From: Providencia alcalifaciens
GTDB taxonomy: Bacteria > Pseudomonadota > Gammaproteobacteria > Enterobacterales > Enterobacteriaceae
Length of the DNA stretch: 64,000 nt
Assembly (NCBI GenBank): GCA_025961275.1
Contig: JAOQNJ010000001.1
Coordinates: 4,547,353-4,611,352, forward strand
Direction of reading: 5' to 3'
Under the pieces are notes generated by a model that did not search any database, was not told the origin of the DNA, and saw only the letters and a program-made list of their open reading frames with translations. A program made the translations under genes and the position numbers. This document shows, piece by piece, positions 12,718 to 40,300 of the stretch. How positions within the stretch are numbered: the first letter of the stretch is position 1; each line of letters starts with the position of its first letter.

Positions 12718-13248
12718 ATGACGCTATCTATCAAAAAGCCAAGTTTATTAATAATTGCATTTACATTAGCAGCTCTCACAGCGTCAAATTCTGTGAAAGC
12801 GAAAACATTGGTTTACTGTTCGGAGGCTTCTCCAGATAGCTTTAATCCTCAGTTATCTGTTTCAAGTACAACATTCGATGCTAGTTCAGCTCAGATATAC
12901 GATCGTTTAGTTGAATTTACATTGGGTACTACAGTCATTGAGCCGGGGTTAGCGGAACGCTGGGAAGTGAGCAAAGATAACAAGATTTATACCTTCCACT
13001 TACGTAAAGGTGTTAAATGGCATTCAAACAAAGATTTCAAGCCAACTCGTGATTTTAATGCTGATGATGTAATTTATAGCTTTATGCGCCAAAAAGATGC
13101 TAATCATCCATATCATAAAGTCTCTGGGGGCAACTATGAGTTCTTTATGGGAATGGATATGGATAAACTCATCGATAAAATTGAAAAAATTGATGACAAT
13201 ACCATTCGTATTACTCTGATTCGTCCCGAATCTCCATTCTTATCAAAT
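12718..13248 (+). pseudogene. dppA: Dipeptide-binding protein DppA-like, 5' fragment
   Basis: The first ~177 codons of a periplasmic dipeptide/heme-binding protein. It has a signal peptide (about 1-28, ending SVKAKT) and the mature start [18 protein letters not shown], very close to E. coli Dpp[20 protein letters not shown] and the segment to RPESPFLS are intact. An IS3-family element begins at 13249; translation would read into it and stop at 13332. Only the first third of the binding domain remains, so the protein should not bind peptide. The 3' end survives beyond the IS. Confidence 0.9.
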
Positions 13249-13265
13249 TGTTCTGCGCAACTAAA

Positions 13266-14090
13266 TCAGGACACTTTTCTTAAGGAATTTTGTTCATACT
13301 CAATTGGGGACAGATCACCGTTGGCAGTATGAAACCTTTCTAGGTTGTAATAGCGCATATACGCGATAACATCTTCTTTCATCTGTTTCCGAGTCGGCTG
13401 AGGGATTTTCAGTACCCAATCGTGTTTTAAACTGCCAAAAAATCGTTCTACAACGGCGTTATCCCAACAGGCTCCAACATCACCCATGCTTGCCCTAATA
13501 CCATAGCTTGTTAGCAAGCGGCGATATCGCTTACTCGTATATTGAGAGCCTCTATCACTATGAAAGACTAAGCCTTTTTCGGGCTGGCGTAAGTTATACG
13601 CTTTCATCAAGGCTTTACTGACTAAATCTGCCGTCATTCGTTTATCGATATGCCAACCCACAATACGGCGTGAGTATAAGTCCATCACGATGGCTAAATA
13701 CATCCAGCCTTCCCCTGTTTTTAAATAGGTCACATCACCCGCCCACACTTCGTTAGGTGCGTGAGGATTAAAATTTTGATTGAGCAAATTATCGGCTACG
13801 GCATCACTGTGTTTGCGTTTTGTGGTGACTTTGTAAGCAACGCGCTGAGTGACGACTAGGCCAAGCTGAGCCATTAGCTTTTGAACGCCATAAGCACTCA
13901 CGCTAAAGCCCTCTTTGCATAACCGTTTACGTAACGTTCTATAACCTAAGCTATTTCGACTCTGTTCAAAGATAGCTTTGGCTCTGCGGTACAGGCTAAG
14001 TTGTTCTGCGGTGATCAATTTTGCTGGGCGTTTAAGCCAAGCATAGTAGGCAGAACGACTTATTTTCATTAACTTGCAGAGCTTCAGCAC
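13266..14090 (-). CDS. IS3-family transposase OrfB (DDE integrase domain), copy 1
   Basis: 274 residues from the internal ATG; the true product is probably an OrfAB fusion. The rve/DDE core shows D in [15 protein letters not shown] in [12 protein letters not shown] and E in [18 protein letters not shown], ending [14 protein letters not shown]. The reading phase is open upstream to the OrfA slippery site, encoding SQRPPAKGNQVAFKTIK before the ATG, so -1 frameshifting can join it to OrfA. Catalytic residues are intact, suggesting active or recently active transposase. Confidence 0.93.
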
Positions 14091-19792: not shown

Positions 19793-20494
19793 ATGAATCA
19801 AAAACATTGGTCAAAATATCAATTACTTCATGAAGTTGTAAAAAATACCAATATTCATATTAAAGGTTGCCATAGCTACTACAGCCATTGTTGGGATGAC
19901 GGATTTAAACAATCGGTTGTCCGTTATCTGCAAGGGGATGCAGGCAGCTGTGATTGGCAACTCGCTTGGAAAGTTGACCAGCTTTATATTGGTGATTATG
20001 TCTGTATTGGTAGTGAAGCTGTCATCTTGATGGGCGGAAATCACACCCATAGAATGGATTGGTTTTGTCTATACCCTTTTATTGAGCATATTAATGAAGC
20101 ATACATCGGTAAAGGGGACACCATAATTAGCGATGGGGTTTGGATTGGCATGCGCGCATTTATTATGCCGGGTATCAAAATAGGTGAAGGTGCGGTCATC
20201 GCCGCTAACAGTGTGGTTGTCAAAGATGTAGAACCTTATAGCATTGTCGGTGGTAACCCAGCTAAGCGGATTAATTACCGTTTTTCCCCCGATATTATTG
20301 CTGAGCTTTTGGCATTAAAAATCTATGATTGGCCCGAAGTGAAATTTAAGGCTTTAAGACCTTATTTATGTGATTCGGATTTGACGGCATTAAAAAAAGC
20401 ACTGGCTGATTGTTCTGCGCAACTAAATCAGGACACTTTTCTTAAGGAATTTTGTTCATACTCAATTGGGGACAGATCACCGTTGGCAGTATGA
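19793..20494 (+). CDS. CatB/Vat-family O-acetyltransferase, C-terminus replaced by IS
   Basis: Hexapeptide-repeat xenobiotic acetyltransferase that uses acetyl-CoA to modify chloramphenicol or streptogramin-type drugs. Host-encoded residues run to about 206. They include YYSHCWDDGF, the left-handed helix strands around SDGVWIGMRAFIMPGIKIGEGAV, the catalytic His region MGGNHTHRMDW (about 82-92), and IVGGNPAKRINYRF. The last 27 residues come from the IS copy that begins at 20411. Family members are about 209-215 long, so only a few native residues are lost and activity may survive. RBS agga precedes ATG 19793. The drug target is not certain. Confidence 0.85.
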   Translation: MNQKHWSKYQLLHEVVKNTNIHIKGCHSYYSHCWDDGFKQSVVRYLQGDAGSCDWQLAWKVDQLYIGDYVCIGSEAVILMGGNHTHRMDWFCLYPFIEHINEAYIGKGDTIISDGVWIGMRAFIMPGIKIGEGAVIAANSVVVKDVEPYSIVGGNPAKRINYRFSPDIIAELLALKIYDWPEVKFKALRPYLCDSDLTALKKALADCSAQLNQDTFLKEFCSYSIGDRSPLAV

Positions 20495-21252
20495 AACCTT
20501 TCTAGGTTGTAATAGCGCATATACGCGATAACATCTTCTTTCATCTGTTTCCGAGTCGGCTGAGGGATTTTCAGTACCCAATCGTGTTTTAAACTGCCAA
20601 AAAATCGTTCTACAACGGCGTTATCCCAACAGGCTCCAACATCACCCATGCTTGCCCTAATACCATAGCTTGTTAGCAAGCGGCGATATCGCTTACTCGT
20701 ATATTGAGAGCCTCTATCACTATGAAAGACTAAGCCTTTTTCGGGCTGGCGTAAGTTATACGCTTTCATCAAGGCTTTACTGACTAAATCTGCCGTCATT
20801 CGTTTATCGATATGCCAACCCACAATACGGCGTGAGTATAAGTCCATCACGATGGCTAAATACATCCAGCCTTCCCCTGTTTTTAAATAGGTCACATCAC
20901 CCGCCCACACTTCGTTAGGTGCGTGAGGATTAAAATTTTGATTGAGCAAATTATCGGCTACGGCATCACTGTGTTTGCGTTTTGTGGTGACTTTGTAAGC
21001 AACGCGCTGAGTGACGACTAGGCCAAGCTGAGCCATTAGCTTTTGAACGCCATAAGCACTCACGCTAAAGCCCTCTTTGCATAACCGTTTACGTAACGTT
21101 CTATAACCTAAGCTATTTCGACTCTGTTCAAAGATAGCTTTGGCTCTGCGGTACAGGCTAAGTTGTTCTGCGGTGATCAATTTTGCTGGGCGTTTAAGCC
21201 AAGCATAGTAGGCAGAACGACTTATTTTCATTAACTTGCAGAGCTTCAGCAC
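20428..21252 (-). CDS. IS3-family transposase OrfB, copy 2
   Basis: 274 residues, the same translated sequence as copy 1, with intact DDE motifs ([26 protein letters not shown]). Probably made as an OrfAB fusion by -1 frameshifting. Confidence 0.93.
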   Translation of the reverse strand: MLKLCKLMKISRSAYYAWLKRPAKLITAEQLSLYRRAKAIFEQSRNSLGYRTLRKRLCKEGFSVSAYGVQKLMAQLGLVVTQRVAYKVTTKRKHSDAVADNLLNQNFNPHAPNEVWAGDVTYLKTGEGWMYLAIVMDLYSRRIVGWHIDKRMTADLVSKALMKAYNLRQPEKGLVFHSDRGSQYTSKRYRRLLTSYGIRASMGDVGACWDNAVVERFFGSLKHDWVLKIPQPTRKQMKEDVIAYMRYYNLERFHTANGDLSPIEYEQNSLRKVS

Positions 21253-38607: not shown

Positions 38608-38818
38608 TTAAAAAATAAAATTATTCTTAAAAATTAATTATATTTTACAGATAAACTTCAATTGCAATATTTTCATTTTACTTTAATAATAAAATATATC
38701 ATTTGGTGTTTAATTATTTCAAAGTAATCATCTATTGAAATAAGAACATATAATTGATACTGAGCATTTAATTAATAAATGGATTTAACATGTGTATTTA
38801 ATACGGAGAATGATATTT

Positions 38819-40249
38819 ATGGCTATAACATTAGAACAAAGAAAAGCAGAGTTAGCAGCAAGAGAAAAAACGCAAGGTATTGGTGAAAATAAAGTTCTAG
38901 GGGGAAATGCGCTCAATCGTGGATATAATAAGGGTATTATTGAAGGCGGGATTGCCTATGATGGTGGAATGGGTAACGGTAATACTCAAGGAGGGAGCGC
39001 AACAAATAATAACATAAATGAAGACACCGTTGCAGGGGGCGCAGCATTTAACCGCGGCGTTAATAATGGTGATGTTGGCGGAGGTGATGGCATTAACGAT
39101 GGAATAAACAAAAATACACTTTTAGGTGGTATGGCTGATAATAATTTTGGTTCTATAAATCAATCAGGTTCTTTTATTAAAGGTGGTGACGCAATTAGGG
39201 AGCTTCAGCGTTGTGTAGAGAGTTATGATGGTCATCTAATTCAATTAAAAGCAATGCAAGATGATTACGCAAAGATAAAAGGACAAATTGAAATTGGCCA
39301 AACTCAAAGCAATAAAATATCGCATGCTGAACAAGAAAAATTAGAAAATTTATTAATAGAAAAAAATGATGAAATTAATAAATTGAATGATAATATCAAA
39401 AATAATCTTAACGAAATTCAAAAGTTAACTTCTCAATCAACAGGTAAAGATGAGATTGTTAAAGCTGTAACAACAGAGCTTGAAGAAGCTATTAAGCAAA
39501 AAAATGAACTAATAGCACATTTGGCTGATGTTGAAAATAAAAAACTAAATGCTTTTAAACGTATTGAAACATTAAAAGAATCTATTGAACAAAAAAACAA
39601 GGAAGTATCAGAGTATCAAAAAAAATTAGAAGAGCATGGTGCTGACAAGGATGATCTAAATAAAAAGATTTCAACATTACAAAGTGAATTGAAAAATAAA
39701 GAAACTGAATTAAATAATAATCAAAAGTTAGTTGCAAGAAGAGAAAAAACAATTTCTAAACTCAATACTAGAATTTTGACAGTAGAAGTCGAATATAATC
39801 AAAAGCAAGATGAATTAAAAAAACAATTAGAAGAAGTTATGAATCAAATATCAGCTTTAGCTAAAGAAGGTAAAAATAAATTATCTGATTCTGTTACTGT
39901 TACAGCAGGTAGTAAAATAACCGCTTCAACAGTAGAAACAACCACTACAATAGATGATGAGTCATCAACTGCTCCATCTATTAATGGTGGCAACGTTCGA
40001 AATACAGGTACGAATACAGGTCTGATAAAAGCGGGAGATAGCAACAGTCACTCTATTGTTGTCAATACTGAAATTAATATTGATAAAGGCAATACTAGTG
40101 ATCTCGTTGTAAGTAACCTAGTTGAATCAATGAGTGGAATGACAAGTAAGGCCGAAGGTATTATCACTGATGTTATTGGTTCAGTGGATAAAAATACTAA
40201 AGGTGTTGTTGTATTTGCACAAAATAGCTCAAACCAAGTAGTTTGTTAA
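38819..40249 (+). CDS. Unrecognised protein: 15-residue Gly-Gly repeats plus long coiled coil
   Basis: 476 residues from ATG 38819 (GGAG 10 nt upstream; in-frame GTG 38792 and ATG 38810 are poorer). I do not recognise a family. There is no signal peptide and no membrane segment. Residues 28-125 hold GG pairs at 28, 43, 58, 73, 88 and 103, an exact 15-residue period with Asn/Gly-rich turns (GGNALNRG, GGIAYDGG, GGAAFNRG), then one more at 122. This suggests a beta-solenoid. Residues about 130-355 are Lys/Glu/Asn-rich heptad-like coiled coil. A Thr/Ser-rich linker follows, then another turn-like copy, INGGNVRNTGTNTG, and a final VVC. AT-rich compared with neighbours, which suggests acquisition. 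Own terminator; probably monocistronic. Confidence 0.85.
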   Translation: MAITLEQRKAELAAREKTQGIGENKVLGGNALNRGYNKGIIEGGIAYDGGMGNGNTQGGSATNNNINEDTVAGGAAFNRGVNNGDVGGGDGINDGINKNTLLGGMADNNFGSINQSGSFIKGGDAIRELQRCVESYDGHLIQLKAMQDDYAKIKGQIEIGQTQSNKISHAEQEKLENLLIEKNDEINKLNDNIKNNLNEIQKLTSQSTGKDEIVKAVTTELEEAIKQKNELIAHLADVENKKLNAFKRIETLKESIEQKNKEVSEYQKKLEEHGADKDDLNKKISTLQSELKNKETELNNNQKLVARREKTISKLNTRILTVEVEYNQKQDELKKQLEEVMNQISALAKEGKNKLSDSVTVTAGSKITASTVETTTTIDDESSTAPSINGGNVRNTGTNTGLIKAGDSNSHSIVVNTEINIDKGNTSDLVVSNLVESMSGMTSKAEGIITDVIGSVDKNTKGVVVFAQNSSNQVVC

Positions 40250-40269: not shown

Positions 40270-40300
40270 AGAGGCCTACAGTTTGTAGGCCTCTTTGTTT
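40270..40300. terminator. Terminator between repeat protein gene and sdaA
   Basis: AGAGGCCTAC and GTAGGCCTCT form a perfect 10-bp stem, then ttgttt. Serves the plus-strand gene and possibly the convergent sdaA. Confidence 0.85.

Follow-up and report, generated by a model that had tools for sequence, protein, structure and literature searches.

A mosaic Providencia gene between dacC and sdaA encodes a putative solenoid, coiled-coil and solenoid-turn protein

Trimeric autotransporter adhesins are built as a head followed by a coiled-coil stalk, RTX parallel beta-rolls repeat a unit of 9 residues, and phage tail fibres are typically cytosolic, Gly-rich proteins with a coil and beta-repeat layout and with mosaic exchange. 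Passages of a published account of the adhesins (PMC9543794) describe beta-roll heads whose layers span 14 residues, a core of hydrophilic Thr and Asn residues in the head of BpaC, and mostly 15-residue layers in UspA1, where an extra conserved glycine stands next to the invariant one. We analysed a 476-residue protein encoded within a stretch of 64,000 nucleotides from Providencia alcalifaciens (the window, taken at its full length). Its nearest nameable design appears to be the head and stalk of these adhesins, with which it shares repeats of 14–15 residues with invariant glycines and, in the predicted fold, hydrophilic core residues. Membership of the adhesin group nevertheless fails, because the protein has no signal peptide, no YadA anchor and no sequence similarity to the group; its N-terminal domain (N-domain) has no detectable similarity to any Pfam or PDB entry, the YadA-like head included, and a predicted extra solenoid turn follows the stalk. 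With phage tail fibres the protein has in common the lack of a signal peptide, a coil and beta-repeat in one chain, and mosaic alleles, but no phage relative was found and no phage neighbourhood recognised. RTX beta-rolls and the predicted Providencia solenoid are both glycine-rich parallel repeats, but the units are 9 and 15 residues, respectively, and no RTX model appeared in the Pfam scans. Coiled coils of the SMC/Rad50 and phage tape-measure types give weak profile scores over the Providencia coil, some of them over the linker, but the ATPase or tail context of such proteins is lacking here.

The gene and its immediate surroundings comprise the following features, given with their basis.

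38644..38671, + strand: conserved, promoter-like upstream element (TTTACA, 16 nt, AATATT after TG), containing AACTTCAATTG; alignment
38805..38808, + strand: ribosome binding site GGAG, 10 nt 5′ of the ATG; sequence
38819..40249, + strand: gene for the putative solenoid / coiled-coil / solenoid-turn protein, 476 aa; intact ORF
38819..38878, + strand: N-terminal polar segment, residues 1–20; alignment A1 and composition
38879..39208, + strand: predicted N-terminal solenoid, residues 21–130, six 15-residue turns and a cap; shuffles, profile and inner/outer dN/dS
39209..39859, + strand: predicted coiled coil, residues 131–347, 217 residues; hydrophobic period and length
39860..39979, + strand: Ser/Thr-rich linker, residues 348–387; 40% S+T
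39980..40063, + strand: predicted C-terminal solenoid turn, residues 388–415; profile score and cross-matches in relatives
40064..40246, + strand: variable C-terminal tail, residues 416–476; alignment A4
40270..40294, either strand: bidirectional terminator-like hairpin between the gene and convergent sdaA; terminator scan

The ORF starts with ATG and is enclosed by a 485-aa ORF started by GTG; the shorter, 476-aa reading is favoured because of the GGAG placed 10 nt before its ATG. Among the neighbours, which we take to be dacC, sdaA and his genes, sdaA lies 79 bp and dacC 265 bp away. A colicin-like bacteriocin was rejected, since these gaps leave no immunity gene. The terminator that a first-pass annotation of the window had assigned to the gene corresponds to the bidirectional hairpin, from a scan with 4 terminator-like sites as compared with 0.8 in shuffled sequence. 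The AT-rich codons that it had reported are likewise apparent, third-position GC being 0.17 in the gene as compared with 0.27–0.38 in 11 other genes of the window; for 14 other copies of the gene the value is 0.29–0.34 in nine, close to host genes, and 0.17–0.26 in five. Elsewhere in the window, positions 13266–14090 and 20428–21252 (− strand) hold two copies of one 274-aa ORF, presumably transposase-like. The ORFs at 12718–13332 (which we take to be substrate-binding-protein-like) and 19793–20494 (presumably acetyltransferase-like) run into these copies with a common, identical 27-residue end, and both seem to be interrupted or extended by the 274-aa-ORF element.

Upstream of the gene, the sequence AACTWCAATTG is present in 15 of 15 aligned regions, and the TTACAG part of the element is missing in one genome (G002). 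In the window, a sigma-70-like match with an extended −10 falls on the element; the promoter scan that gave it was no richer in matches than shuffles (8 against 10.6). The 20-mer TTACAGATAAACTTCAATTG has one exact copy in the genome, and no regulon emerged, as 4 further matches at 3 mismatches compare with 2 control matches. At up to 5 mismatches, the element is absent from all nine loci at which the gene is missing.

GG pairs occur at residues 28, 43, 49, 58, 73, 87, 88, 103, 122 and 390, and those at 28, 43, 58, 73, 88 and 103 form an exact 15-residue ladder, confirming the earlier description of a GG every 15 residues without slippage. Shuffling the whole protein 100,000 times, and the N-region another 100,000 times, never produced a six-step ladder, the largest having 4 steps; when any step from 5 to 30 was allowed, none of 20,000 shuffles reached six and the largest was 5. 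Across 16 N-domains (alignment A3) the 15-residue unit reads GGxAxNxGxNxGxVx, and six turns are followed by a cap, GGxAxRxLQ, at the transition to the coil. We defined positions 1, 2, 4, 6, 8, 10, 12 and 14 of the unit as inner and the other seven as outer. Mean within-column entropy is 0.45 bits at inner and 1.96 bits at outer positions, inner positions, which make up 48 of the 90 columns, account for 25 of the 26 that are invariant in the six turns (hypergeometric P 4.6e-8), the contrast is best at the assigned register when the pattern is slid over all 15 (1.51, next 1.03), and dN/dS is 0.05 inside and 0.57 outside over all pairs of 15 sequences, or 0.05 and 0.50 between the window protein and its P. 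burhodogranariea orthologue; the classes were chosen from the same alignment, which makes this inner/outer contrast partly circular and its numbers optimistic, and the one feature that does not depend on the choice is the every-second-residue pattern. Conservation of every second residue is forced only by a beta-strand with alternating side chains, and the pattern thus provides good indirect evidence that the N-domain is a solenoid or roll. Since just 1 outer column in 42 shows no variation, no fixed binding site is visible.

The predicted coil would be about 32 nm long if helical throughout. Its hydrophobic period is 3.51 in the window protein and 3.49–3.52 in 16 of 16 rows of the family alignment. 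A single heptad phase runs through the 28-residue frames that begin between residues 171 and 311; it is not kept in the three earlier frames, which are weaker and shifting, or in the two later ones. Coil length is 217 residues in three rows and 203, two heptads less, in L034; 278 in seven rows and 257, three heptads less, in L035; 279 in two rows and 258 in one, these lengths covering every row but the truncated L045. The difference of 61 between the 217- and 278-residue forms is not a whole number of heptads. The coil makes self-assembly plausible.

Beyond the linker, the turn starting at residue 390 is GGNVRNTGTNTGLIK, with a turn-profile score of 18.4 as compared with at most 15.3 in 500 shuffles. 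It recurs in the family: the best turn match beyond residue 170 is the C-terminal turn in 15 of 16 rows (L045 has none), and in 14 of these 15 it outscores all 500 shuffles, the exception being L034 (10.1 against 10.4). In 5 of the 15 genomes that it matches, the C-domain profile also picks out the N-solenoid (E 0.008–0.07), and the N-domain profile matches the C-terminal part in 12 of 15 family genomes (E 0.004–0.26), the window's own not among them. The related turn after a long coil that the annotation had pointed out is confirmed, beyond a heptad coil of 217 residues, and the solenoid–coil–solenoid layout draws support in the family from the every-second-residue conservation, the heptads and the recurring C-terminal turn.

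Hydropathy analysis gave no hydrophobic N-terminus or transmembrane segment in the window protein. When the 16 rows, including L038 and L039, were read from the family start codon, 19-residue hydropathy over the first 30 start positions was negative in every one, with a maximum of −0.17 in the window protein, in agreement with the earlier statement that there is no secretion signal; over the full length the maximum is 0.84 for the window protein, and no family member exceeds 1.18. The ORFs of L038 and L039 continue for 22 residues upstream of the family start and include hydrophobic residues there; since GGAG precedes the family start in both, a hydrophobic N-terminus is unlikely in either. 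The surface location, fibre and appendage also suggested by the annotation have no export signal behind them.

Assignment to a known family was rejected, because matches were weak, sub-threshold and mostly on the coil. Whole-protein matches in Pfam, PHROGs, NCBIfam, PADLOC and PDB are of coil type and below threshold, and they centre on the coil with few reaching into the linker; one weak NCBIfam match covers residues 338–430. All 10 matched Pfam families lie below their curated cut-offs, as do the 25 listed of 30 NCBIfam families, and the 25 listed of 29 PADLOC matches span residues 124–369. For the N-domain, no PDB chain was found at E 10, the 16 N-domains matched no Pfam family at E 1 and no PADLOC defence model, and PHROGs and NCBIfam gave one match each, by one member (E 0.13 and 0.15). 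The C-domain, scanned against Pfam, PHROGs and PDB, gave weak matches, by at most 3 of 15 members in the two scans made by member. Pfam scans of the whole protein and of 15 C-domains returned no YadA-type beta-barrel anchor model, and Rfam matches around the gene were all below gathering scores. The view that no known family is involved thus holds in these five protein libraries, in which clear homology to a phage fibre or adhesin family was looked for and not found. An anti-phage defence system was rejected in view of the lack of PADLOC matches outside the coil, among the 16 N-domains and the listed whole-protein matches. An N-profile match in G008 (E 0.23) was dismissed as chance, because it falls on a 155-aa ORF that begins like a signal peptide and lacks the repeat. 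No title or abstract opening among those listed from the literature searched, which covers few subscription journals, names the protein.

A gene-presence survey of the kind proposed in the annotation established that the family is real. Matches were obtained in 15 of 24 Providencia genomes, with an intact ORF in 14 and a rearranged one in 1, and one genome of a second genus (G150) has an intact copy; in the 9 other Providencia genomes dacC adjoins sdaA and there is no tblastn match. Among 392 genomes of the bacterial family (154 genera), 6 match by N-profile and C-profile, all from those two genera, and in surveys of the class (369 genomes) and phylum (398 genomes) the window's own genome is the sole match. 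Plasmids gave no match with the BLAST low-complexity filter on. These results describe a protein family of one genus and its neighbour that is apparently undescribed. In the rearranged genome, G011, three shorter ORFs of 421, 114 and 228 aa with family features form a duplicated, partly decayed arrangement (L045:5801-9896), and a transposase-like pair lies between dacC and the upstream element. In G016 (L034:8788-10154) sdaA is split over two ORFs and one stop lies inside the match. Intervals between dacC and sdaA are 75–496 bp in seven of the nine empty loci, and the empty site of G018 (L052:2869-3099) contains two copies of one 18-base hairpin sequence, perhaps left behind when the gene was lost.

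The genes dacC and sdaA flank the family gene in the window and in 15 of 15 other loci examined. Other genera supplied 28 sdaA loci, including that of G150; among the remaining 27, four have dacC within 1.5 kb and no family gene, and the rest have no dacC there. This pattern suggests that the empty state came first, with the gene arriving before the split between Providencia and the genus of G150. Because every copy lies between dacC and sdaA, we read the locus as an old one with gain or loss; presence and absence require at least 5 changes over 25 rows of a dacC+sdaA tree that carries a long-branch warning at G150 and the outgroups. The place given by the annotation, which had the gene acquired between dacC and sdaA, is correct; the gene's presence in 15 of 24 Providencia genomes and a second genus shows that it is not recent there, and recent acquisition was rejected on the synteny in the second genus.

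The gene is under purifying selection, with a whole-gene dN/dS of 0.23 against the P. burhodogranariea orthologue and 0.17–0.23 in four pairs; for dacC and sdaA the values are 0.01 and 0.04 in the one pair tested. It is also mosaic, and polymorphic by presence/absence and segment exchange. Genomes G022 and G023, from two species, share 99% identity over sdaA and over the first 1 kb of dacC; in the gene, identity is 75–92% over the first two thirds and 97–100% over the last, solenoid DNA differing by 22% and the C-domain by 0. Their pS is 0.02 in sdaA, 0.10 in dacC, 0.51 in the N-domain, 0.39 in the coil and 0.00 in the C-domain, while in G020 and G014 the relation is reversed (0.19 in the gene, 0.45–0.49 in the flanks). 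These patterns indicate that divergent alleles are imported by recombination and that the N-, coil and C-parts move separately from one another. When 200 kb around the locus was compared between G022 and G023 in 500-nt windows, 611 of 798 aligned (187 did not) with a median identity of 99.2%, and 6 of the 13 aligned windows below 92% lie on the gene and its upstream region. Five of the other seven are at one further place. In the other strongly divergent stretch of this comparison, L120:7251-9250, three windows have 70–74% identity and two are unaligned, and two short ORFs with signal-peptide-like starts are found there. Recombination is frequent throughout Providencia: according to passages of a study of four species (PMC3542290), 781 of 1937 core orthologues show it, with no hotspots. 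An outer dN/dS below 1 does not demonstrate positive selection, and relaxed surface constraint would also fit.

Our preferred explanation, a possible one that we hold tentatively, is that the protein is an oligomeric rod with an adhesin-style head and stalk, lacking signal peptide and anchor, whose variable face recognises a changing partner; we infer both the fold and the recognition function. The chain would fold into a thin parallel beta-solenoid or beta-roll head with Asn/Gly/Ala/Val ladders inside, a coiled-coil stalk of 30–40 nm would hold a parallel homo-oligomer, and each chain would end in one extra solenoid layer, probably an oligomerisation cap, and a short tail. The invariant ladders would keep the head folded while outward residues serve as a recognition surface, and the rod would bind a partner that differs between strains, such as a phage, competitor or host factor. 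Divergent forms of head, coil and tail would therefore persist, and homologous recombination through the flanks would reshuffle them. As the sequence shows neither a signal peptide nor a transmembrane segment or anchor, the rod would act in the cytoplasm or exit by a route without a Sec signal. The swapping of versions between species hints at binding to an ever-changing target, and independent exchange of N- and C-parts argues against a tight match between head and tail. We tentatively propose a role in conflict or recognition. The fuller proposal, in which a novel kind of intracellular or non-Sec-exported recognition rod is encoded by a polymorphic, segment-swapping locus and its head is matched against a changing opponent such as a phage, seems to us unlikely.

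The main rival of the recognition role is a cytoplasmic scaffold or filament with a loosely constrained surface, in which the single C-terminal layer would stack on the open end of the N-terminal solenoid of another molecule and rods would join head to tail; we judge it unlikely. The lone turn resembling the N-terminal turns needs a stacking partner, and the long coil, the lack of an export signal and the outer dN/dS below 1 would all suit such a structure, but its N- and C-parts recombine independently, absence from 9 of 24 species is hard to reconcile with a scaffold that is needed, and low constraint alone leaves divergent alleles in nearly identical flanks unexplained. An effector or adhesin exported without Sec, through a type III system or some other one-step route, say, and acting on host or competitor cells is a distinctly improbable reading: each Drosophila-associated Providencia isolate has at least one type III system, according to passages of PMC3542290, and the gene's low third-position GC in the window, its patchy distribution and its variability would suit accessory effectors, but the gaps on either side offer no space for a chaperone or immunity gene, no effector family was matched, and third-position GC is close to that of host genes in 9 of 14 other copies. 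We consider a domesticated phage tail-fibre or tailocin-fibre gene very improbable. A cytosolic, Gly-rich chain with coil, beta-repeat and mosaic exchange is fibre-typical, but no phage gene was recognised among the ORFs of the window, as first reported, and the gene occupies a fixed site in the core genome; 50,697 phage records yielded no tblastn match with the low-complexity filter on, the N-domain none even at E 10, no match was confirmed in viral contigs, and PHROG tape-measure matches are limited to residues 144–393, coil and linker.

Since no N-domain model was found in the domain libraries searched, the family is likely to escape annotation. If the recognition-rod reading is true, Providencia would possess an adhesin-like head-and-stalk design that lacks its usual defining features, the parts for export and anchoring. 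Its function would then be directly testable, because the locus is a single gene for which an empty site exists and closely related species have naturally swapped alleles.
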